A DNA stretch of 44,529 nt from Candidatus Zixiibacteriota bacterium. Lineage in GTDB: Bacteria > Zixibacteria > MSB-5A5 > UBA10806 > 4484-95. The translations under genes and the position numbers were made by a program. Location of the stretch: assembly GCA_021159005.1 (NCBI GenBank), contig JAGGSN010000085.1, forward strand, positions 1-44,529, written 5' to 3'. The notes under the pieces were generated by a model. The model worked only from the letters and a program-made list of their open reading frames with translations, did not search any database and was not told where the DNA came from. Below are positions 19,356 through 42,875 of this stretch, piece after piece; within the stretch, counting starts at the first letter, position 1; each line of letters opens with the position of its first letter.

Positions 19356-19481
19356 CATTCAGAATATTTTATAAGCATATCAATATTTTTAAGAACATTT
19401 TATATTCCGAAACAGGAAAACATTTCCCCCCTTATAAAAAAAATGAATCGTTTCAACGTGGAACAAAACAGCTAAAGCATT

Positions 19482-19534: not shown

Positions 19535-19552
19535 TTGGCATGGTCATTGCAA
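19535..19552 (+). promoter_or_regulatory. Sigma-54 promoter of the flgB operon
   Basis: TTGGCATGGTCATTGCAA: GG (19537-19538), ten bases, GC (19549-19550), matching the TGGCAY-N5-TTGCW consensus. Transcription would begin near 19562, leaving an 85-base leader before flgB. The 19356-19534 stretch before it is AT-rich and has no gene. Confidence 0.85.
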
Positions 19553-23897: not shown

Positions 23898-24813
23898 TAA
23901 ATTAATAAAAAGATATAAGTACAATACCTCGAAGGAACAGAAAGTTGTTAAAAAGCAACAAATACTGAAAAGGACAATGCTTGAACATGACATATTACAT
24001 GAGTCGCCTGAAATCACATTTCGCAACGTGTTGAAAAAAGGACAATTTCAGGAGTTGGATTTATCCTTATTCAATTCTAATAAAACGGATAGTCAAAAAA
24101 AAAAGGCCGATGCGAAATCATCTTCCCCCAATAAACTTAATGAAACTAAAGCCCGAACTTCTGTCGGCGCATTAAAAAAAGATTCCCCCAAAAATAATTC
24201 GACTAACGTGCAGGCGAGCAGTTTGAATATTGGTGACAGTAAAGCCAATTTAAATAATGCTAATCGCCGCTCCATAGAAGACGTTTTAAAAAAGGAACAT
24301 GAAGCTCGCCTAAAAAAGGAAACCGAAAAATCATATAAAATAGGTTTTAGGGATGGCCATAAGAATGGTTTGGATGAAGCTGGCTCGAAGACAGACCAAA
24401 TCAATCGGGTTTTGAATACTATTACAGAAGAGCTTAATGAAAAAAGTCAGAATTTCTTTAATGAAGTTGAAGATATAGTAATGGATTTATCGGTTCATCT
24501 CGCTAAGAAAATTATCTTTGGGGCGGTGGATATGGTCCCGGATATTGTTAAGGCGAATGTTGAGAACTGCGTTAAACTTTTAGCTGGAGCAGGCCAGGTT
24601 ATTATAAAAATTAATCCCGCAGATTATGATATAATAAAAGAATATATACCCGGTTTAGACCAGAAACATGAAGGGAAATTCTCCTTTGTTATTGAACCCG
24701 ACAATAGTATAACTCGCGGCGGCTGTCTTATTGAACTTAATGGTTCTGTAGTTGACGGTCGTATTGAGACCCAGTTCGAGAAATTAAAACAACATATGGA
24801 AATGCTTGTATAA
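23887..24813 (+). CDS. fliH: Flagellar assembly protein FliH
   Basis: 308 residues from a TTG at 23887. The frame is open from an ATG at 23842, but that lies 56 bases inside fliG; AAGGAAG at 23878-23884 favours the TTG, overlapping fliG by 11 bases. The N-terminal half is basic, low-complexity linker. The helical part (KEHEARLKKETEKSYKIGF, with a GxxxG-like DGHKNGLDEAG) is followed by the conserved FliH/HrpE domain: VEDIVMDLSVHLAKKIIFG, then VIIKINPADYDIIKEYI and DNSITRGGCLIELNGSVVDGRIETQ in two blocks. FliH regulates the export ATPase FliI. The stop overlaps the fliI start by one base (TAATG). Confidence 0.88.
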   Translation: MLYSKLIKRYKYNTSKEQKVVKKQQILKRTMLEHDILHESPEITFRNVLKKGQFQELDLSLFNSNKTDSQKKKADAKSSSPNKLNETKARTSVGALKKDSPKNNSTNVQASSLNIGDSKANLNNANRRSIEDVLKKEHEARLKKETEKSYKIGFRDGHKNGLDEAGSKTDQINRVLNTITEELNEKSQNFFNEVEDIVMDLSVHLAKKIIFGAVDMVPDIVKANVENCVKLLAGAGQVIIKINPADYDIIKEYIPGLDQKHEGKFSFVIEPDNSITRGGCLIELNGSVVDGRIETQFEKLKQHMEMLV

Positions 24814-26150
24814 TGTTAGCTGTTGGTGAAAAAGCGGCAAAGATCAAAGGAATATTAGATTCAGTTCAATTTGTCAGCCAAAAAGGTGTGGTTAAGCGTG
24901 TTGTAGGCATTGTAATCGAGGCGACCGGACCCGCTCTTAAAGTAGGCGATCAGGTTTCGGTTGATACTCCCAACGGCGCTATACCCGGAGAGGTTGTAGG
25001 TTTTAGGGATGGCAGCATCTATTTGATGCCTTTGGGAGAAATGACAGGCATAGGTCCCGGAGCTGTTGTAACCGCAAGCGGCAAAACTTTGACCGTCCAG
25101 GTCGGTACTGAACTGCTTGGCCGGGTTGTTGACGGGCTTGGCAGACCTATAGACAACGGGCCGCCTTTTCTGTGCCGGGAAAACAGACCACTGAACGCTT
25201 CTGCGCCCCATCCTCTTGAAAGACAGAGAATCACCAAACCATTAACGACTGGTATCAGAGCTATCGATAGTTTTCTTACAATGGGACAGGGGCAGAGAAT
25301 CGGCATATTTGCCGGTTCGGGAGTCGGTAAAAGCGTGCTTTTAGGGATGATTGCCAGGTCTACATCCGCTGATGTTAATGTCATTGGTCTGGTTGGGGAA
25401 AGAGGCAGAGAAGTGAGAGATTTCATCGAAAAAGACCTTGGCGAAGAAGGTCTTAAAAAATCCGTAATCGTTGCGGTAACCTCGGATGAATCCCCCCTGC
25501 TTCGAATTAAAGGACTTATGGTGGCAACAACAATCGCCGAATACTTCCGTGATCAGGGAAATAATGTAGCTTTAATGGTAGATTCATTAACAAGAGTAGC
25601 TATGGGACAGCGCGAGATAGGTCTTTCTATCGGCGAACCGCCAACAACAAGAGGCTATACACCGTCGGTATTTTCCTTGTTCCCAAAACTTCTGGAGCGG
25701 GCAGGACAATCAAAAAACGGAAATATCACCGCTTTTTATACCGTGCTGGTCGAGGGCGATGATTTATCCGAACCGATAAGCGATATAACAAGGTCAATCC
25801 TCGATGGACATATTGTTCTTTCACGCAACCTGGCATCTAAATTCCACTACCCGGCAATTGATGTGCTGGAATCTATTAGCAGGCTTATGCCAGATGTTTG
25901 CGATAAGGAACATCTTGAGATCGCCAGCAAATGCAGAACCATACTAGCTGATTATCGAGATGCAGAGGATTTAATCAACATTGGCGCTTATGTCAAAGGC
26001 TCATCCGCAAAAATCGATTATACTATTGAAAGAATAGATGCTCTCAACGAGTTTTTAAATCAGTCAGTTGGAGAAAAAAGCGATTTCGAACAATCGCTTA
26101 ACAGACTCCGGCAAATTTTAATAGGTCCTCAGGATAATGAAAAAGTTTAA
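24813..26150 (+). CDS. fliI: Flagellum-specific export ATPase FliI
   Basis: 445 residues, normal length. Walker A is AGSGVGKS (167-174), Walker B is VALMVDSLTRVA (about 251-262), and the type III ATPase block GEPPTTRGYTPSVFSLFPKL follows. It is the hexameric ATPase of the flagellar export gate, related to F1-beta. It starts within the fliH stop and overlaps fliJ by 14 bases, so fliH-fliI-fliJ are tightly coupled. Confidence 0.96.
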   Translation: MLAVGEKAAKIKGILDSVQFVSQKGVVKRVVGIVIEATGPALKVGDQVSVDTPNGAIPGEVVGFRDGSIYLMPLGEMTGIGPGAVVTASGKTLTVQVGTELLGRVVDGLGRPIDNGPPFLCRENRPLNASAPHPLERQRITKPLTTGIRAIDSFLTMGQGQRIGIFAGSGVGKSVLLGMIARSTSADVNVIGLVGERGREVRDFIEKDLGEEGLKKSVIVAVTSDESPLLRIKGLMVATTIAEYFRDQGNNVALMVDSLTRVAMGQREIGLSIGEPPTTRGYTPSVFSLFPKLLERAGQSKNGNITAFYTVLVEGDDLSEPISDITRSILDGHIVLSRNLASKFHYPAIDVLESISRLMPDVCDKEHLEIASKCRTILADYRDAEDLINIGAYVKGSSAKIDYTIERIDALNEFLNQSVGEKSDFEQSLNRLRQILIGPQDNEKV

Positions 26151-26586
26151 TTTCAGGCTGGAAAAAATCAGAAAATATAAAGAACAACTCGAGCAAAATA
26201 AAAAATTGAAATTAGCTTCCGAGCAAGCCCGTCATCTTGTTGAACAAAACAAATTGTCGGATATAATTTATACTAAAGGCAAATACTATCTAATGTATGG
26301 CATACGTAAACCCGGAAAGATTAATATTTATAATCTGCTTGTTGCTAAAAGATACATTGATAAACTCAGCCAGGATATAGTTGTTCAAACAGAGGTAGTA
26401 ACTTCTGTTGAAAAAAATGTTTCCAAAGCCCAACAGGAACTTTTAAACGCTTCACGTGAAAAGAAGAAATATGAGAAGCTAAAAGAGAAACATCTTCAAA
26501 ACTTTAATAAAGATATGCTGCGTTTGGAAACCAGGGAATTGGATGAGTTCGGCAGCAGGGACAACAGAACAAAACAGCTGATTTAA
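26137..26586 (+). CDS. fliJ: Flagellar export protein FliJ
   Basis: 149 residues, almost fully helical. It begins MKKFNFRLEKIRKYKEQLEQ, typical of FliJ (F-x-F-x-L-x-x-V-L-x-x-R/K), and continues as a coiled coil ending RLETRELDEFGSRDNR. FliJ is the stalk of the export ATPase. It starts inside fliI. Transcription of this operon segment ends here, before the oppositely oriented subtilase gene. Confidence 0.9.
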   Translation: MKKFNFRLEKIRKYKEQLEQNKKLKLASEQARHLVEQNKLSDIIYTKGKYYLMYGIRKPGKINIYNLLVAKRYIDKLSQDIVVQTEVVTSVEKNVSKAQQELLNASREKKKYEKLKEKHLQNFNKDMLRLETRELDEFGSRDNRTKQLI

Positions 26587-26632
26587 CAGCAAACAGAAAT
26601 TACGCCCGGATTGCATTTGAATTATTTTATAG

Positions 26633-26673
26633 CCCCCAGGATAATCCGTCTTAAGCGGATAACATCCTGAGGG
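26633..26673. terminator. Hairpin between convergent fliJ and subtilase genes
   Basis: An outer stem (CCC..CAGGAT with ATCCTGAGGG, one mismatch) encloses an inner stem ATCCG/CGGAT, giving a long imperfect hairpin. Neither side has a proper T run, so it may be a weak bidirectional terminator or a 3'-end stabiliser. Confidence 0.45.
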
Positions 26674-26685
26674 TAATACAATCTA

Positions 26686-29600
26686 CTATTTTTGCTTAGG
26701 CGGTTTGACCGCTTTTTTATCAATTTCGCAGGGAATAATCATAATATCGAGTTTTCCAGGTTTAAGTACTGATATATTTGCGGGTATGCTTGCCGGCGGA
26801 ACATCCGGACACCAACGCAAAGTGTCGCTTTGACCCTTAAAATATCTTATCATATAAGTAATATCAGAACCCAAAAAACTGCAGCTGGCGTTAACATCAC
26901 AGGCAGCATAGAGCCATGATTCATCGGGAAGCTGACAGCTATCCGGCGGCGTATTGCCGGTACCCCTGAAATAGTTGACTCCATAAATCACATCGGAGGC
27001 AATAACTATGCCATCGCCGTTTATATCGCCCGGCAAATAATCACAGCTCGAAGGAATAATTACATGCAGAGCCGCTTCAATCTCGATAATACTGTCAACT
27101 GGATCATTAGAAACAACAGTAATTGTGCCCGTATAATCGCCTTCGATTAATCCCGATGCGTTCACGGTAATATTAATCGTATCAGGAGCTTCACCCTCAG
27201 CAGCCGCGCCGTTATCGGGATTCTCGGAAAGCCATGATCTGTTATCGGTGATACTGTATGTAAGCGTGCCGCTGCCGTTGTTGCCTATGGTTATCTCAAC
27301 AGCAGTAACACTATCCTCATAAATAGTCTCTTCGATTGAATCCACGCTTATATCGATGACCGGTACGGTTTCAATCTCGACAGTTAGATTAACAGGTATG
27401 TCGATTTCCGGCTGAGCCGGGTCATTCGAGCTAACGGTTATTGTGTCGGAATAGCTGCCCTCATCAAGAGCCGCCGCATCTAAGGTTATGGTTATCGTAT
27501 CAGTCATTGAGGGAGATACCCTGCCGCTGTCGGGAGATTCTGAAATCCAGTCGCTGTTATCGCTGAGATTATAATCCAAATCTGCCGTGCCGACATTGAT
27601 AATGATAAGCTCAATATCAGTTGATTGACCGACATATACGGTATCATCGATTTCGAAAAGACTAAGGTCTATTATAGGTCCCGGTTCACCGCCAACCGTT
27701 AAGGTTACGGGAATATCAACATCAGGTTCGGCAGGGTCGTTGCTCATTAAATTAATATTGCCGGTATAAACGCCAACATCAAGCTCGGAAGCATCAAAAG
27801 TAACGGTTGCATTATAGTATTCATGCGGCGGAACTGTCCCGATTTCCGGGTAAACAGACAGCCAGATCGGGTCAGCGGATATTTCTACTGCCAGGTTGTT
27901 GTGAACATAAGCGGCATTATAGACAACCTCAAGACCAATTGTCGAGTTTTCATTTTGGATACCCAGAGTCGTCGAGTTATCGGGAGAGTTAATATCCTGA
28001 TACTGGAAAATTATTTTACCGCCGCTTAAAAGAATTATCTGGAATGAATACGGACCGCCGGAACTGTAATGAGGGACATCTACCCATGAGATAACAAGGC
28101 TGTCGCTGTTGTTCGTGTAGTAATAAGCCGAACCGCCATTTCTGAAATCAAGATCATCCCAGAACGGCGCAATTATATTGTATGGTTCGCTATTGGAGGG
28201 AATTGAAAGATTAGTACAGGATGTATATATGGAGGTGAAAGATATAAAACCATTGGTAGAAAATCTGAATGAGTTAAAATTATTGCCGTAGAAATTGAAA
28301 TTAAATCCGAACGAGAACGGACCAACGTTAGTGTCATCGCCAATACCTGTAATCTGTGTTCCTGTTGATGTTATATCAACCCATGAATATACCGGACCGC
28401 TCGGTTCATCAGAATCAATCCAGCAATAGCCGTAATCATCAGGACCGCCGTGGTCGGTAATTAAAGGCGGATAGTATGGTTCTCTTTTTGCGCCTTTCTT
28501 ATCGCTGAGCGGGTGATAACCGAGAAGTTCTGTTTTTTGCGGAGATATAGCTGCCGGTAAAGTTTGACCGTTAACAAGAGTAAGAAGGCTGTAAATTTCG
28601 GTAGATAAGTTGTAGCTTAAGGAACCATCGCCATCATTTGTTAATGTCAGGTTGCTGTTCTGGGTATTTCCCGGTTGTATAAGGATATTATACGATGACG
28701 GATTGTATGACATATCCGGCGGCACCGGAGGCTGTGCGCCTACCACAACGACATCATCAATATACCAGCCTGCTCTCGCAACAGAGCCGTCCGTGCCGAA
28801 TCTCCAGCGGAATATAACATTTTGATTATAGCAGCTTGAGATATCGAATACGGCATGTATCCAACCATTGCTTGAGTTAGTATAACCCGGCTCTAAATAA
28901 CCAAATGCCGAAATATCAGGATCGGGATAACCGCCATCCGGTGTTAGCAATGTCCAGTTTGCGCCGCCATTAGTAGAGATAGAAACATTGCCCCCATCAT
29001 AACTGTTTTCGATATCATACCAATGATAGAATTCCAATCTTGCGTTAGGGTCAGAAATGAAATGTTCCGAGCTTGTTAAGTAATCATCAACATTATTTGG
29101 ATATGTCCCCCCAAGAACAGTGCCCCAGACTTTCGCCCCCGACCAGGCGCTGGCTGGTCCGTATGTGGGTTCGCCCCATTCCCAGACGCCGCTTCCCGAA
29201 TAACCGCCATTGTTTGCTTCAAATGATTCAGCCGGCCAAAGTGTAAAATCTAAAATGTTAGTCTGGCCATCCTGAACAAATATTGAATCTAACCCATGGC
29301 TGCAGCCGATTGCTTTAACCTGCACATCATAGGTGCTTCCCGATGGAATTGACGGGAATTGATAATAGCCATTGACATCTGTTGTTTCCGGCGGAACAGG
29401 CGTATTGAGTATTGTAATCTCGGCATTAGGTATTGAGTCGCCGACAACAGAGGTAACCGTTCCCTCCAGAACCGCCGTTGGAGCTAAGGCAAGGGAGAAA
29501 TCCTGTGATACTGTATCATCAAGAGCTGCATAAACAGACTGCTGTTGGGGAAGGTATCCGAAATAGGACGCTTCCAACATGAAAGTCGTATCTGCAGGCA

Positions 29601-31179
29601 AGCCGATAAAATAATAGCCTGATGCATTAGCGTTTGTTTCAACCTGCATGTCAACAACGCTGACTTTTCCGGGAATAGGCGCAGAAGTGCCGGCATCGGT
29701 GATATAACCATCAACAAAACCAAAACCCTGCGCAAAAAGTACCGCCTGGTAAAGATTAATAAGGCCATGCCCGAACGTGTTCTCCTCGCCATCAGGAGAT
29801 GCAAGCGGCAAATCTACTGCTGTAGCCATCAGAATTTCTTTTATTGTATTAGCATCAAGGTTGGGGTTTGCCTGACGGATAACCGCAACCGCGCCGGTAA
29901 CATGAGGCGATGCCATAGAGGTACCGCTTTTCGTGCCATAACCGCCGCCCGGGATAGAGCTTCGAATATCACTCCCCGGAGCGACGACTTCCGGTTTGAT
30001 AGCCAAATCGCCGCTGGCGCATTCTGTCGGACCCAGAGCCGAGAAATAAGATATTGGATATGAAGGATCATTGGCATCGATAGAACCAACCGAAAAACAG
30101 TTATAATATGTCGTTGCCCTATCGGCTGGCGAGCGCAGTCCGTTTGAACTTTCATTGCCGGCGGAAAAAATAACCACCGTACCGGCAGCCTCGCAATTAT
30201 CGATAGCGACCCAGAAAGTCGTATCGCAATCAGGATAGCCGATGCCATCAGGGATGCCCCATGAGTTGCCGCAGGCATCGGGGTTGTCTTGGGTTAACGG
30301 GTCGCCGTCAGGGTCGGCAATCCATTGAAAAGATAAAAGGATATCGGATATTGTCCTCTCAATAGTACTTCTATCTACTGGAGCAGCGGCAATCCAGGTA
30401 GCGTCAATCGCCACGCCGATAGTATCGCCGGCGGCTGAACGGCCGCAGATTGTGCCCATCGTATGAGTGCCATGCGTGCCTGAATCTTGAGGAAAATCCC
30501 AGTTAGTATCATACGGGTCATACCAGCTTTCGTCAACGTCGCCGTCATCATCAACATCGCCGCGAAAACGGTCTGCCAGCGCCGGATGAGTACCGTCAAC
30601 GCCGGTATCAAGATTAGAAACTACGCGGCCAAGTCCGGTATAGCCAAGCGCCCACGTTTCCGGAGCATGAATAGCGATTAATCCCTGCTCAATGCCCTTA
30701 GCGAGAATATCAGGCTCTGCCGGTTTAGGGTTTTCTATCGGCTCAATAAGCTCGACAGCAAAATCGATGGTTATTTTACCAACCTCATCCATCATAGCAA
30801 GCGTATTAATAGACTTGGCGGTTCCCTCAAAAAATATCATATTAGCCAGCCACAAGGCTTTGACATTTTTTATCTCGCCTCTGGCAGACAGGTCGTCTAT
30901 CATTGCCAAAACCGACGGCTGAGTTTGAGTGGCTTTCTCCTGAAGCGTAGTAATAACCTGATAATTTCTGTGAGCTAAGGTTGCCTTTTCTAAGATTAAT
31001 TGATGGTCTATTTCATAGATATTAGCCTGGTCAGCCATAACTAATATCACTTTGTGAGTCCCCTCCGGATTTGTGTTTTCAATTTGTGCTTGAAGCTGCG
31101 GGCTTATTGACCCAGCCATAACAAGTGCTGGAATACAAAGCAACATACAGCCTATCACTGCTGCTCGAAATAACTTCAT
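26686..31179 (-). CDS. Secreted multidomain subtilase (S8) with dockerin-like C-terminus
   Basis: 1497 residues. Signal peptide 1-22, then an inhibitor-like propeptide (about 38-140). The S8 domain has the complete triad: Asp191 (SNLDTGVDGTHP), His236 (GTHGTHTMG), Ser421 (SGTSMASPH), with oxyanion Asn342 (SAGNESS); it resembles bacillopeptidase F-type subtilases. Next come two carboxypeptidase-regulatory-like beta domains (about 490-640), a jelly-roll/MAM-like domain with WYIDDVVVVG, and a beta domain with FRFSTNGFISF. Three tandem Ig-like repeats of about 100 residues follow, each with SNDP and a W-x-S/N-x-x-P-x-x-G motif. A pair of EF-hand dockerin-like units (GDINGDGIVIASDVIYGVNY; ACDVNASCSFLGSDITYMIR) closes it. 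Probably an extracellular or surface protease. It sits between two flagellar operon halves on the other strand. Confidence 0.9.
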   Translation of the reverse strand: MKLFRAAVIGCMLLCIPALVMAGSISPQLQAQIENTNPEGTHKVILVMADQANIYEIDHQLILEKATLAHRNYQVITTLQEKATQTQPSVLAMIDDLSARGEIKNVKALWLANMIFFEGTAKSINTLAMMDEVGKITIDFAVELIEPIENPKPAEPDILAKGIEQGLIAIHAPETWALGYTGLGRVVSNLDTGVDGTHPALADRFRGDVDDDGDVDESWYDPYDTNWDFPQDSGTHGTHTMGTICGRSAAGDTIGVAIDATWIAAAPVDRSTIERTISDILLSFQWIADPDGDPLTQDNPDACGNSWGIPDGIGYPDCDTTFWVAIDNCEAAGTVVIFSAGNESSNGLRSPADRATTYYNCFSVGSIDANDPSYPISYFSALGPTECASGDLAIKPEVVAPGSDIRSSIPGGGYGTKSGTSMASPHVTGAVAVIRQANPNLDANTIKEILMATAVDLPLASPDGEENTFGHGLINLYQAVLFAQGFGFVDGYITDAGTSAPIPGKVSVVDMQVETNANASGYYFIGLPADTTFMLEASYFGYLPQQQSVYAALDDTVSQDFSLALAPTAVLEGTVTSVVGDSIPNAEITILNTPVPPETTDVNGYYQFPSIPSGSTYDVQVKAIGCSHGLDSIFVQDGQTNILDFTLWPAESFEANNGGYSGSGVWEWGEPTYGPASAWSGAKVWGTVLGGTYPNNVDDYLTSSEHFISDPNARLEFYHWYDIENSYDGGNVSISTNGGANWTLLTPDGGYPDPDISAFGYLEPGYTNSSNGWIHAVFDISSCYNQNVIFRWRFGTDGSVARAGWYIDDVVVVGAQPPVPPDMSYNPSSYNILIQPGNTQNSNLTLTNDGDGSLSYNLSTEIYSLLTLVNGQTLPAAISPQKTELLGYHPLSDKKGAKREPYYPPLITDHGGPDDYGYCWIDSDEPSGPVYSWVDITSTGTQITGIGDDTNVGPFSFGFNFNFYGNNFNSFRFSTNGFISFTSIYTSCTNLSIPSNSEPYNIIAPFWDDLDFRNGGSAYYYTNNSDSLVISWVDVPHYSSGGPYSFQIILLSGGKIIFQYQDINSPDNSTTLGIQNENSTIGLEVVYNAAYVHNNLAVEISADPIWLSVYPEIGTVPPHEYYNATVTFDASELDVGVYTGNINLMSNDPAEPDVDIPVTLTVGGEPGPIIDLSLFEIDDTVYVGQSTDIELIIINVGTADLDYNLSDNSDWISESPDSGRVSPSMTDTITITLDAAALDEGSYSDTITVSSNDPAQPEIDIPVNLTVEIETVPVIDISVDSIEETIYEDSVTAVEITIGNNGSGTLTYSITDNRSWLSENPDNGAAAEGEAPDTINITVNASGLIEGDYTGTITVVSNDPVDSIIEIEAALHVIIPSSCDYLPGDINGDGIVIASDVIYGVNYFRGTGNTPPDSCQLPDESWLYAACDVNASCSFLGSDITYMIRYFKGQSDTLRWCPDVPPASIPANISVLKPGKLDIMIIPCEIDKKAVKPPKQK

Positions 31180-31271
31180 AATACTCTCTTTCTTTGAAGG
31201 ATTATCAATGATTTATCGTACAATTTCCATTTTTCAAGTTAATGACAAACGCCTGAATATATAGTAGCTAA

Positions 31272-31300
31272 ATAATATTGAAAATTTACTATAAAATCAA
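31272..31300 (-). promoter_or_regulatory. Putative sigma-70 promoter of the subtilase
   Basis: On the minus strand: TTGATT (31300-31295), 17 bases, TATTAT (31277-31272). Transcription would start near 31265, giving a leader of about 85 bases. Nothing here resembles the sigma-54 or sigma-28 boxes of the flanking flagellar genes, so the subtilase is probably not co-regulated with them. Confidence 0.5.
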
Positions 31301-31500
31301 GTTAAATATGGCTTAAGGCTGTCAAAGGTTAAAACCCCGGTTATTAAAAGTCGGGCTTTTTAGCAGCTTTCGTTTAAAGGAAAATTATGCTCATAAGCTC
31401 AGGAAATATTTTCTTAATATAAACATCAGATGATTTGCAAAAGACCTTTTTGCTGCATGTAATTAATTGAACTGCAACATGTTGTTATAAATTAAGTTCT

Positions 31501-31518
31501 CCGGCATGCTCATTGCTT
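31501..31518 (+). promoter_or_regulatory. Sigma-54 promoter of the second flagellar operon
   Basis: CCGGCATGCTCATTGCTT: GG (31503-31504), ten bases, GC (31515-31516). The core GGCATG-N-TCATTGC is the same as in the flgB promoter (19537-19550) apart from one base. Transcription would start near 31528, only about 12 bases before the ATG at 31540. Confidence 0.85.
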
Positions 31519-31539
31519 TGTTATAAGGCGGGAAAGTAT

Positions 31540-32115
31540 ATGAGTATTGTTTTTAAAATATTCGGTTATCTGGCAGCAGTTGTATTTGGTCTGGCGGTTT
31601 ATATGGTAGTCTTTTTAGCCGCCCTTGGCTTAAAGCCGGATATTAGTATGGCATACGCCAAATACAAGTTAACTCATCTAAAAGAAAGCGCTGCAGACAT
31701 TAGTTATGATGACTTATTCACTGCTGAAGAGCGGGAAGCTATAATGCCTTATTATGTGAAAGAAGAAATAGCATCTGCAAGACTGAAAATTGATGTCGAG
31801 CGTGATGAGATGCAAAGCCAAATAGACTCGCTGGCGGCAGAGAGAATCAAGCTTGAAAACCTGAAAAGAGAAATTGAATTGCTAATTGAGAAAAAAACAA
31901 GGGTTGAAGATAAGAAAATGACTGAGCTGGCACAGCTTTATGATAAAATGGATTTAAAAAGAGTAGCTGAAGTTTTACATCAAATGGACGATTCTCTTAT
32001 TGTAGAGATATTACCCAGAATGAAGTCTGCTAACGCCAGTCAGGTATTAGAATATATGTCGCCGGTAAAATCGGCTGAGATATCTCAATTGCTGTTGGAG
32101 GGAAAAATAAAATGA
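31540..32115 (+). CDS. MotE-like flagellar protein (COG3334; YlxF position)
   Basis: 191 residues from ATG 31540, with AAGGCGGGA as ribosome site. A TTG at 31513 would extend it but falls inside the promoter. One membrane helix (about 5-28) is followed by a coiled coil (about 85-130) and a C-terminal MgtE-N-like domain of short helical pairs (MDLKRVAEVLHQMDDSLIVE, ILPRMKSANASQVLEYM). This is the MotE/COG3334 layout, and the place after fliJ and before fliK is that of Bacillus ylxF. MotE is described as a chaperone or partner for motility proteins; the exact role here is unknown. It overlaps fliK by 4 bases. Confidence 0.78.
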   Translation: MSIVFKIFGYLAAVVFGLAVYMVVFLAALGLKPDISMAYAKYKLTHLKESAADISYDDLFTAEEREAIMPYYVKEEIASARLKIDVERDEMQSQIDSLAAERIKLENLKREIELLIEKKTRVEDKKMTELAQLYDKMDLKRVAEVLHQMDDSLIVEILPRMKSANASQVLEYMSPVKSAEISQLLLEGKIK

Positions 32116-34154
32116 ATCAGATATTGTTTGATATAACAGCTCTGACAGATTTCTTCATAGATCAAAATGAAATACCGGTTATCCAAAATACCGGCGCCAA
32201 TTCAGATTTTAAAAATATCCTGACAACATCGATTATTAATGATAAAATCAGGCAGGAATGCCAAAATAAAACTGATATTGATCTTGTTTATTCTATTTTA
32301 AGCAATATTCCCGCTATTGTAATTAATACAGATATAATCCCCAATCTGTCATTCAATAAGTATCTAACGAATGAAAATCTTATTGGTGATACCCTCGTTC
32401 AAGCTAACCGGGAATCAATATGTTATCCTCAGATAGAAACGCTTACGCCTGAATCAATGGCTGTTTGCGATTTAAAAAGCCTTATTGAAGCTCAGGCAAT
32501 TCCACTGACATTAAACCTTAATAGAGTTAATGCTGATGTTGTTGACTGGGCAGACCCGCATAAGTTTCAGAATGTTATAAGTACTGAGACTAAAGGTGTT
32601 CAGAATGATCTATTCGGCGGTCAATCTAAGGGAAATGTATTGCCTGATAATGCGCTGCTAATGGATGATTCAAAGAGCAATGCTATTAAGCCGGACCTGG
32701 TTCAAACTGCAAATTCCGGTTATATGACGGAAGGCAAAGCCCAGTATTCAAAAATAATTTTCACTGTCGATCAGATTTTTGATAATTCGCAGGATGAAGT
32801 TCCGGTGAAAGTTCTTGATGACAGCAATAGTGTTTCCGACATGAAGATTGCCGTATCAAAGTTAATAGAGTTGGTGAAGAATTATCCCGATAAAATCATC
32901 GTCGAGGTTAAAACTACTCCGGCAGATACCCGGTTGATGGCTGATGTTGGCGTTATAAATACACCGCAAACAATAATGCCGGCTGCTTCTGATGTTCATA
33001 CTGAAGCCGGATTCGCAAAACCACCATCAGAGAAATTTGTTATTTTTAATTTGAATTCTCTTTTATCACATGATGGTTCTGAGAAAATCAATGTTGTGCA
33101 AAAAACACTAAGCGATAGTCCGCAAGCTTACGTTAACTCAAAAAATCAACATCCCTATTTGCCCGAAACCAGATTTATTACAAATATAAATCATGAAATA
33201 AAATTTGTTCCAAGTATTAATTCTTCCTCTACGGTTGAAATCGCCGCTAATGAACAGCCGGCAATGAATCAAAAACAGGAAATGCTTTCGTCTGTTAGCA
33301 ATTCACCGCCCGAAAATGTTAAATCGAATAATCAGGAAACTGCAGTCAAGCAAACATCGCAGGAACATTTAACAGAAAAGGATGACAACTTGAAAAACAT
33401 AAATGATCTCGATTTAAAACGTAAGGATAATCGACAAGCCGCAAGTTTTAGCAGAGATAATGTAAATAAATTAACCGATAGTAATAGTACTAAAAATAAT
33501 CAGGATGCAAAAACCTTAACGACATCCGAGCATAGCTCATCAACAAATAAAGTTCCAATACAACCGTCTCAAGCGGATACTATACAAACGCAATCGTCTC
33601 AAACTCAGGATACTCAACAACAGGCATCACAATTACAATCAGCGCATAGGTCAAGTATTCAACCCAGTATTCAGCCGGATGCTCCTGCTGCCGAGAGTCG
33701 TATTTCTGCGAGGCAAGCTGATACAACTGAAAATATAATCAACCAGATAAAATCAAAGATGGTTGTTGCTCATGATAATACTCGCATGACCATACAACTT
33801 AAACCGGAAAGTCTGGGCAAAATATTAATTGATTTCAAGTATAATGGGCATAAGCTGGAGGTTTTATTCAGGGTTGATAATCTCGATGTAAAACAGGCGC
33901 TCGATTTAGAGATGCCGAAACTAAAAGCCGATTGGAAAATTGACGATTTCCGCGTGGCGATGAATAATAGCGAACAACAACCTAATCTAAGCGAAAACAA
34001 TCAGCGTTCATCCGGAATGGCTAATCAGAAATCATCATCCGGTAATAATTCGGTCAATAATGTTATAAATGCAGATAACGATGTATTGCCAATTGAGCGC
34101 AATAGCAGAAATCCTGCTAATGTGTATGGCGGTGTAATAGATATAGTAGCTTAA
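32112..34154 (+). CDS. fliK: Flagellar hook-length control protein FliK
   Basis: 680 residues, long for FliK (Salmonella 405). Most of the first 540 residues are low-complexity and disordered, with a Gln/Ser/Thr-rich stretch (about 460-530), fitting a molecular ruler. The conserved C-terminal Flg_hook domain (about 545-625) has MTIQLKPESLGKILIDFKY and LEVLFRVDNLDVKQALDLEM. The extreme end is NPANVYGGVIDIVA. FliK sets hook length and switches export from hook to filament. A longer ruler fits the very large hook protein encoded downstream, though the link is only an inference. ATGA overlap with the motE-like gene. Confidence 0.88.
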   Translation: MNQILFDITALTDFFIDQNEIPVIQNTGANSDFKNILTTSIINDKIRQECQNKTDIDLVYSILSNIPAIVINTDIIPNLSFNKYLTNENLIGDTLVQANRESICYPQIETLTPESMAVCDLKSLIEAQAIPLTLNLNRVNADVVDWADPHKFQNVISTETKGVQNDLFGGQSKGNVLPDNALLMDDSKSNAIKPDLVQTANSGYMTEGKAQYSKIIFTVDQIFDNSQDEVPVKVLDDSNSVSDMKIAVSKLIELVKNYPDKIIVEVKTTPADTRLMADVGVINTPQTIMPAASDVHTEAGFAKPPSEKFVIFNLNSLLSHDGSEKINVVQKTLSDSPQAYVNSKNQHPYLPETRFITNINHEIKFVPSINSSSTVEIAANEQPAMNQKQEMLSSVSNSPPENVKSNNQETAVKQTSQEHLTEKDDNLKNINDLDLKRKDNRQAASFSRDNVNKLTDSNSTKNNQDAKTLTTSEHSSSTNKVPIQPSQADTIQTQSSQTQDTQQQASQLQSAHRSSIQPSIQPDAPAAESRISARQADTTENIINQIKSKMVVAHDNTRMTIQLKPESLGKILIDFKYNGHKLEVLFRVDNLDVKQALDLEMPKLKADWKIDDFRVAMNNSEQQPNLSENNQRSSGMANQKSSSGNNSVNNVINADNDVLPIERNSRNPANVYGGVIDIVA

Positions 34155-34169
34155 GAAAGGAGGTGAATA

Positions 34170-34877
34170 ATGACTTATATTTCAGATTTGCAATTCTATA
34201 ACCCTCTTTATGATGGGTACGATGCTTCAACCAGCAGAGATCTTGCCAAGGATGATTTCCTTCAGCTTTTGGTAACACAGCTTAAATACCAGGACCCGCT
34301 TGAACCGATGAAGGATCAAGAATTTGTGGCTCAGCTGGCTCAATTTTCCCAACTTGAACAGTTGGAAAACATGAGCGAATCCCTGGATGTGAGTACTCAG
34401 GTCGACTATTTAATGGGTCAAACTATTGCCAATACAATGGCTACGACGCTTATCGGGAAAACAGTGGTTGCCGAGGGTTGTGACTTCACATTAACGCCGG
34501 GTGAGGATACTAATCTGGGCTACCATCTGGGCACAGATGCCGCCAATGTTGATATCAATATATACAACGAGGGCGGAGCATTGGTCAGAACTGTCCATTT
34601 GGATGATGTTAGCGAAGGCAATAACACGTTTGCCTGGGATGGCCGGGATGATAACGATAGTCCGCTTGGTCCGGGTCTATATTCCTATGAAGTGTCGGGT
34701 ACAACAACAGCCGGCGAAACAGTAACGACTCAAAAGCGCGTTATCGGTATGGTCAACTCGGTCAAGTATATTGATGGTAAGGCGTATTTATTTGTTGGCG
34801 GCGGTTTTCAAGTAGATATATCAACTATTATTGAAATCGAACAATCGGATAATCCGATGTCAAATTATGAAGGTTAA
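34170..34877 (+). CDS. flgD: Flagellar hook assembly (capping) protein FlgD
   Basis: 235 residues. The N-terminal FlgD signature is clear (KDDFLQLLVTQLKYQDPLEP and KDQEFVAQLAQFSQLEQLEN, residues about 22-64). The C-terminal half has FLN-like and tudor-like folds with TFAWDGRDDNDSPLGPGLYSYEV, typical of FlgD. AAAGGAGGTG seven bases before the ATG is one of the strongest ribosome sites in the window. FlgD caps the growing hook. Confidence 0.95.
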   Translation: MTYISDLQFYNPLYDGYDASTSRDLAKDDFLQLLVTQLKYQDPLEPMKDQEFVAQLAQFSQLEQLENMSESLDVSTQVDYLMGQTIANTMATTLIGKTVVAEGCDFTLTPGEDTNLGYHLGTDAANVDINIYNEGGALVRTVHLDDVSEGNNTFAWDGRDDNDSPLGPGLYSYEVSGTTTAGETVTTQKRVIGMVNSVKYIDGKAYLFVGGGFQVDISTIIEIEQSDNPMSNYEG

Positions 34878-42122: not shown

Positions 42123-42875
42123 TCATTCATCCGATGAGTCGTCATCGATATTGCCGGAAATTGGAATAGTTATTCTCGAATTAGGTTTCTCTTCCATCTC
42201 GATGGAAATAGAGGTCAGGAATTTACCGGGTTCAAGGTTTTTTAGAAGCGTTAAGGTTAGCTCGGTTGTATCCCCGGGTTTCAATTTACTCTTTTTCAGG
42301 CTGGTTTTAATAAAAGCATCTGATGGTTTTACCGGCATCACGATTTTTACTTTTTCATCAGCCATATTAGTCAAGCTAACTATAACCTGTTTTTCGGTTC
42401 CGCGAGGAACAGTTTCAAAATCAATTTGAAGTGGAGAAAACTCAAGCAATTGCGACGGGTTATTTATTATTGCCTTAAATCTGAGTTCTATATATGGGTT
42501 TACCGGGTCGTTAGTTTCAAGCTTAATCGATTTAGTGATTTTGCCATTGTATTTCCCCGAATAGAAAACAATATCAATACTCGAACGTTCTCCCGGCGCA
42601 ACATCAATATCGGATAAACGAGTTGATGTACAGCCGCAGGTTGGCTTGATTTTAGAGATTATCAGGGTATCTGTTCCGGTGTTTGAAAACCAATAATTAT
42701 GAGTAACATTTGAACCTTTGGTTATCGAGCCAAAATTAAATATGGTTTGCTCAAAGACAATTCGGGCATTTGATTTGGATAATCTGATGCTTGGATTAAT
42801 AGGTTGGCCGTAACTTGCAGTTGTTATTAAACATATAATCGAGAACGCGATTAACGGTAATTTTATTGTTTTCAT
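42123..42875 (-). CDS. DUF1573 family exported protein
   Basis: 250 residues. A signal peptide (MKTIKLPLIAFSIICLITTA) is followed by a DUF1573 domain (about 39-130): FEQTIFNFGSITKGSNVTHN, then FSNTGTDTLIISKIKPTCGC and VAPGERSSIDIVFYSGKYNG. The CGC motif and the tHxFxFxNtG pattern define the family. A second Ig-like unit fills about 135-245 and ends in an acidic tail. DUF1573 proteins are common in Bacteroidetes and relatives; they resemble ASH/MSP-type Ig domains and probably act in the envelope, function unknown. AAAGGAG lies before the ATG, and a TTGACA is visible on the minus strand about 60 bases upstream, without a convincing -10 at standard spacing. Confidence 0.88.
   Translation of the reverse strand: MKTIKLPLIAFSIICLITTASYGQPINPSIRLSKSNARIVFEQTIFNFGSITKGSNVTHNYWFSNTGTDTLIISKIKPTCGCTSTRLSDIDVAPGERSSIDIVFYSGKYNGKITKSIKLETNDPVNPYIELRFKAIINNPSQLLEFSPLQIDFETVPRGTEKQVIVSLTNMADEKVKIVMPVKPSDAFIKTSLKKSKLKPGDTTELTLTLLKNLEPGKFLTSISIEMEEKPNSRITIPISGNIDDDSSDE

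Follow-up and report, generated by a model that had tools for sequence, protein, structure and literature searches.

The window is a stretch of 44,529 nucleotides, contig C85 of the 3.66 Mb assembly (G000) of a Candidatus Zixiibacteriota bacterium, and the nearest relative with a name that a FliI scan brought up is chromosome CP070742.1 of a Candidatus Zixiibacteriota from the same order (G005). The window carries two blocks of flagellar genes on the plus strand. The first block extends from flgB to fliJ and ends with fliI (24813–26150) and fliJ (26137–26586), the latter matching TIGR02473 with 72 bits, above the cut-off, and PF02050 with 60 bits. The second block is headed by a motE/ylxF/FlbB-like gene (31541–32115, plus strand) and continues with fliK (32112–34154; PF02120, Flg_hook, 36.6 bits), flgD (34170–34877; PF03963, 80.6 bits), and, past flgD, a TIGR02530 gene, flgE, and fliL, identified by profile matches. 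The identity of the motE-like gene is weak by profile—24.9 bits for MgtE_N, just below the cut-off, and 21.9 for FlbB—and firm by position, which is conserved in relatives. For fliJ, the motE-like gene, fliK, flgD, flgE, and fliL, the profiles agree with the original prediction; flgC, fliE–fliH, flbD, fliM, fliN, and fliO–fliQ are given as first read. A minus-strand gene for a DUF1573/HYDIN-like Ig protein is located beyond the flagellar genes at 42123–42875.

The interval 26587–31540 runs exactly from the fliJ stop to the motE start. It contains a minus-strand ORF of 1497 aa (26686–31179), which confirms the subtilase read there on the opposite strand between fliJ and the motE-like gene. Between the convergent stops of fliJ and the protease lies a hairpin (26632–26674) with fold z values of −3.3 and −3.0 on the two strands, a probable two-way terminator. 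The divergent spacer on the other side features two elements on the plus strand: tandem palindromes of the GGAA-N5-TTCC type (31379–31414), spaced 23 bp apart and located 123 bp upstream of the −24 element, as the putative enhancer of the motE operon; and the −24/−12 site CGGCATGCTCATTGCT (31502–31517) of the motE–fliK–flgD operon, with a score of 13.5. The head of the first operon is built alike, with a −24/−12 site TGGCATGGTCATTGCA upstream of flgB (19536–19551, plus strand; score 14.75) and a palindrome pair of the motE-enhancer type, GGAAAACATTTCC... (19415–19447, plus strand; P ~0.012 against random stretches). These scores refer to a hand-made sigma-54 consensus (GG-N10-GC) with a maximum of 15.75, and the calls are motif matches.

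The protease is a multi-domain protein. Its Peptidase_S8 catalytic domain occupies aa 184–472 (29764–30630, minus strand) and scores 157–162.5 bits at a cut-off of 21.8; carboxypeptidase-regulatory-like, MAM, NIDO, and BACON/HYDIN Ig-like domains are recognized by profiles, and a prodomain is annotated in addition. A Sec-type signal peptide and dockerin-like repeats can be appreciated by eye in the translation, in line with the earlier description of a large, secreted protease. The catalytic Asp, His, and Ser motifs, likewise read by eye, are DTGVDGTHP, HGTHTMG, and GTSMASPH, the last at aa 419. By domain and motifs, the protein is a member of Peptidase S8 with predicted proteolytic activity. 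Many paralogues of it occur in every genome of the order, and the window genome has seven S8 genes.

The fliJ–motE joint holds a protease-type gene on the minus strand, whole or in part, in all seven flagellated genomes examined of the order, in a sample of only nine genomes in which several contigs end inside the protease. The window genome and G001 show a complete protease with both flanks. The site subtilase of G001 (L098 7682–13834) measures 2050 aa because its C-terminal region, corresponding to window residues ~820–1490, is apparently present twice. In G003, the site is spread over two contigs, one with a complete subtilase on the side of motE and the other with a protease-family tail on that of fliJ; in G004, the subtilase on the motE side runs to the contig end; and in G002, a protease-family tail is found on the fliJ side. 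Given the contig ends in G002 and G003, the slot may contain one gene or more. An extra minus-strand coding sequence in G003 between the complete subtilase and fliJ (L099 1–575 and L100 1–1647) may be a second secreted gene in the slot, with contig ends intervening.

The two remaining flagellated members are represented by scaffolds. G007 carries N- and C-terminal parts of a protease on either side of scaffold gaps, with fliI and flgD 1.8 Mb apart and half of the protease at each. A chromosomal break through the gene was considered and rejected: a run of exactly 100 N lies at each of the two breaks, and the split is an artefact of scaffolding, for which paralogous repeats are the likeliest cause. 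Exact 100-N runs are present in the single-contig assemblies of G005 and G007, several of them in or beside subtilase genes (L108 8119–8218; L109 5625–5724; L241–L243; L248), and these nominally complete assemblies are, hence, scaffolds broken at protease paralogues. The protease-type gene of G005 (CP070742.1) is an M6 metalloprotease with a dockerin, in the identical slot and orientation. Since the flagellar stretch examined in this genome (L107) is free of N gaps, though gaps occur elsewhere in it, the M6 gene at the joint stands. It has only the dockerin-like tail in common with the S8 site proteases (38–48% over 70–90 aa).

G006 has neither FlgD nor flagellin, and its copy of the protease gene is not near any flagellar genes and lacks the enhancer. 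Survival of this gene in place at a relic flagellar locus was rejected, as the neighbors are phosphotransacetylase and TyrRS and no flagellar gene was found in the 17-kb stretch; phosphotransacetylase as an anchor for the G006 copy gave no useful synteny. A tree of the MAM region unites the site copies from G000, G001, G003, and G004 with the G002 fragment and the full-length G006 copy in one clade (support 100). In the catalytic-domain tree, G004 and G006 fall in another paralogue clade, which indicates that catalytic heads were exchanged. Since catalytic-domain trees group G004, and also the fragment from G007, with other paralogues, independent arrivals of proteases retain a small probability. 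The case for one orthologous insertion is built on fragments and on three copies that are complete or nearly so.

The state of the joint outside the order was assessed in loci fetched by FliI similarity and also containing a FlgD match. The order fliI–fliJ–[motE/ylxF-like]–fliK–flgD is contiguous on one strand in most of ~55 such loci from other phyla, with exceptions that include L199 and L216. The latter, from bacterium Modern_marine.mb.176, bears a 1501-aa minus-strand ORF after fliI (L216 7103–11608); tried as a protease, it proved to be a giant FlgE-type hook protein. The run is likewise unbroken in ten Zixibacteria genomes (families f3, f5, and f15), with about 3–4 kb from fliI to flgD and, where measured, 166–295 bp between fliJ and motE. 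In a second Zixibacteria set (15 rows from f6, f7, f9, f12, f17, and CSMAG_164), the joint is occupied by unrelated genes. In the FliI tree—which is built from one gene, with quick support values, and sampled six of the seven protease-bearing genomes—these six form one clade (SH-aLRT 96), the 15 rows with a broken joint form another (SH-aLRT 92), and the remainder and the outgroups are contiguous.

Gene order and clade can be read directly from these data, and two changes on the tree explain all three states of the joint. On this ground, contiguity of fliJ and motE is the best-supported ancestral state, and the insertion in the order was most likely a single event that predates the divergence of its two families. 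Because the protease at the joint is common to all seven flagellated genomes of the order, the insertion is old, not recent. The original prediction had the protease enter an ancestrally contiguous cluster exactly at the fliJ/motE joint, and had proposed a comparison of this interval across relatives; both the contiguity in outgroups and in f3, f5, and f15 and the clade of protease-bearing genomes in the FliI tree bear this out. The search for target-site traces that it had also proposed came out negative, with no direct repeat of at least 9 bases between the two edges. A recent transposon-borne insertion was discarded for lack of such repeats and because a protease or part of one is at the site in all seven flagellated members of the order. 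A history in which the two operons had never been joined in this lineage, with the protease merely at their border and the contiguous families fused later, is unlikely. The 15 rows with other genes at the joint and a promoter of its own for each operon would fit such a history; however, the same contiguous order in most outgroup loci and in f3, f5, and f15 would then call for independent re-joining, which is much less parsimonious than the two changes on the FliI tree.

The sigma-54 site before motE is a nearly constant feature of the joint. A site scoring at least 13 of 15.75 lies close to the start in 14 of 15 motE loci—six in the order and nine contiguous—compared with 3 of 158 other ORF starts from the same loci (P 7e-17), and one of these three is flgB in the window. 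Among the nine contiguous genomes without the protease, eight have the site at the same place, and the ninth (L111) has it further upstream. Genomes with a rearranged joint carry the motE site too, the weakest being L132 with a score of 12. RpoN is encoded in the window genome (PF04552, E 3.6e-60). With a conserved promoter motif at its head and rpoN in the genome, the second block qualifies as a predicted sigma-54-dependent flagellar operon.

The original prediction had a new sigma-54 promoter restore expression downstream of the protease. The promoter site is present, but it is not new, as contiguous relatives without the protease have the same site and the same putative enhancer at the same place. 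A history in which one long operon was cut by the insertion and a promoter then evolved to restore motE–fliK and the genes downstream is, hence, hardly credible. Beyond the site itself at 31502–31517, it would have to accommodate the site in eight of nine contiguous genomes, the upstream site in L111, those at rearranged joints, and the widespread enhancer pair; it is refuted by the promoter in protease-free relatives, unless all of these lost the insert. As the promoter and the probable enhancer predate the protease, a second transcription unit would already have begun internally at the fliJ/motE joint. With enhancer and promoter both retained, the motE operon had no need of a new promoter, and the downstream flagellar genes probably required no repair.

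The tandem palindromes accompany this promoter. A GGAA-N5-TTCC-like pair is found ~120–147 bp upstream of the −24 element, or 101 bp in one locus, with the two palindromes most often 21–23 bp apart. The pair was first noticed in the order and then tested on 20 other members of the class: a pair reaching 12 of 16 matches is present in 19 of these 20 loci, compared with 5.9% of dinucleotide shuffles (P 7e-23). Overall, tandem palindromes occur in 25 of 26 loci, and a like pair precedes flgB in several genomes. The conserved motif is probably where the sigma-54 activator of the flagellar genes binds and, hence, a putative enhancer. An assignment of the GGAA element to the protease itself was rejected, since it is also found before flgB and before motE in genomes without a protease there. 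In contiguous genomes, the pair begins −27 to +14 bp relative to the fliJ stop codon. As it overlaps or abuts this stop in relatives, the protease would separate fliJ from a control unit that is complete and older than the insertion. A palindrome pair is also located between fliJ and fliM in L125 and L126 (G041 and G030, family f14, at least 90% complete). These loci feature fliF–fliH–fliI–fliJ–fliM–fliN, with FlgD and flagellin not found, and represent either a flagellar-type export locus in reduced form or a relative that is non-flagellar.

The protease shares the divergent, enhancer-bearing spacer with motE in all members in which the motE side is assembled. Toward the protease, no sigma-54 site of motE strength was found in six genomes (best scores 9.25–12), and the divergent spacer yielded no conserved sigma-54, sigma-28, or strong sigma-70 candidate for the gene. 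At the other end, the hairpin between the convergent stops is a feature of the window's family (f1), and stronger hairpins with T runs occur at the fliJ/protease stop junction in G001, G002, and G003; because it stands between the convergent stops, any read-through from fliJ to motE was presumably lost in f1. A terminator-like site on the plus strand at 31336–31355 was dismissed, as a simple scan finds near-chance numbers of such sites and no counterpart is evident in G001 or G003.

The suggested link to motility, which the protease would exploit or serve, finds no support: G006 keeps the gene elsewhere, G005 has an M6 enzyme instead, and no sigma-54 site of motE strength faces the protease. 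Retention by flagellar co-regulation—the enhancer acting both ways through the shared spacer, for surface motility or filament processing—is accordingly unlikely. It would agree with the head-to-head arrangement wherever the motE side is assembled and with the secreted protease-type gene, from two unrelated catalytic families, that every flagellated member keeps at the slot. Yet the best sites toward the protease stay below motE strength, motE alone explains the enhancer, family paralogues are numerous in every genome, and G006, without FlgD and flagellin, has its gene at another place that lacks the enhancer. This last copy points to an ordinary secreted digestive enzyme with no need of a flagellum, and the protease is most likely an extracellular digestive enzyme with a promoter of its own and expression that does not depend on motility. 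It is likewise improbable that the seam is a maintained protease slot whose heads were repeatedly exchanged (two S8 types and M6) and whose position and orientation are selected because the shared spacer ties protease output to the flagellar program.

An old insertion at a pre-existing border of transcription units, between the fliJ stop and an intact enhancer–promoter unit, is probably what happened at this joint. In the ancestor of Zixibacteria, flgB...fliJ and motE–fliK–flgD... would have been contiguous on one strand, each block with its own sigma-54 promoter and tandem-palindrome enhancer, the second enhancer overlapping the fliJ stop codon or following it directly. Later, in the order's ancestor, a gene for a secreted multi-domain protease would have entered in reverse between this stop and the enhancer, converging on fliJ and diverging from motE; in the window's family, a probable hairpin terminator separates the two convergent stops. 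The motE operon would have kept its enhancer and promoter, and any read-through from fliJ would have been lost. The gene would then have stayed in the slot in all seven flagellated members, with the head exchanged in G004 and the whole gene replaced by M6 in G005.

A long conserved flagellar run can, hence, open without apparent harm at a point already equipped with a second promoter and enhancer: the old promoter at the joint made the insertion site tolerable. The same seam opened in a second, separate Zixibacteria clade. In a Zixibacteria clade other than the studied order, the gene convergent with fliJ encodes a 430–472-aa secreted protein with a Por/FlgD-Ig sorting tail (L147 4215–5510; L151 2035–3324; L148 4716–6065; L127 2926–4341; L146 4178–5482). 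The Por/FlgD-Ig-tailed protein of G053 carries a cohesin domain; the studied order has dockerin-bearing proteases at the same seam. For the protease itself, the arrangement is of little importance, as it looks like an ordinary secreted enzyme, and the palindrome motif offers a testable handle on the flagellar sigma-54 activator of an uncultured phylum.

Little was found in the literature on Zixibacteria flagella, and nothing relevant on Zixibacteria flagella or secreted proteases; the locus can be set beside systems from elsewhere. The fla/che operon of Bacillus subtilis has the same flagellar gene order (fliJ–ylxF–fliK–ylxG/flgD–flgE), and this run is driven from the upstream fla/che promoter with SigA/SigD, whereas the Zixibacteria run is split into two sigma-54-type units. 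Like the sigma-54 flagellar operons of the FlrC, FleR, FlbD, and FlgR systems, these units feature a −24/−12 promoter, a paired element ~120–147 bp upstream, and RpoN; in place of a described activator and its site, they have the GGAA-N5-TTCC pair as a candidate site and a putative activator. The window enzyme resembles multi-domain secreted S8 proteases in its Asp-His-Ser motifs, signal peptide, Ig-like and MAM domains, and dockerin-like end, being ordinary in kind and unusual solely in its genomic position. The dockerin-bearing M6 metalloproteases, which are immune inhibitor A-like, occupy the same slot and orientation in G005 with a catalytic fold unrelated to S8.
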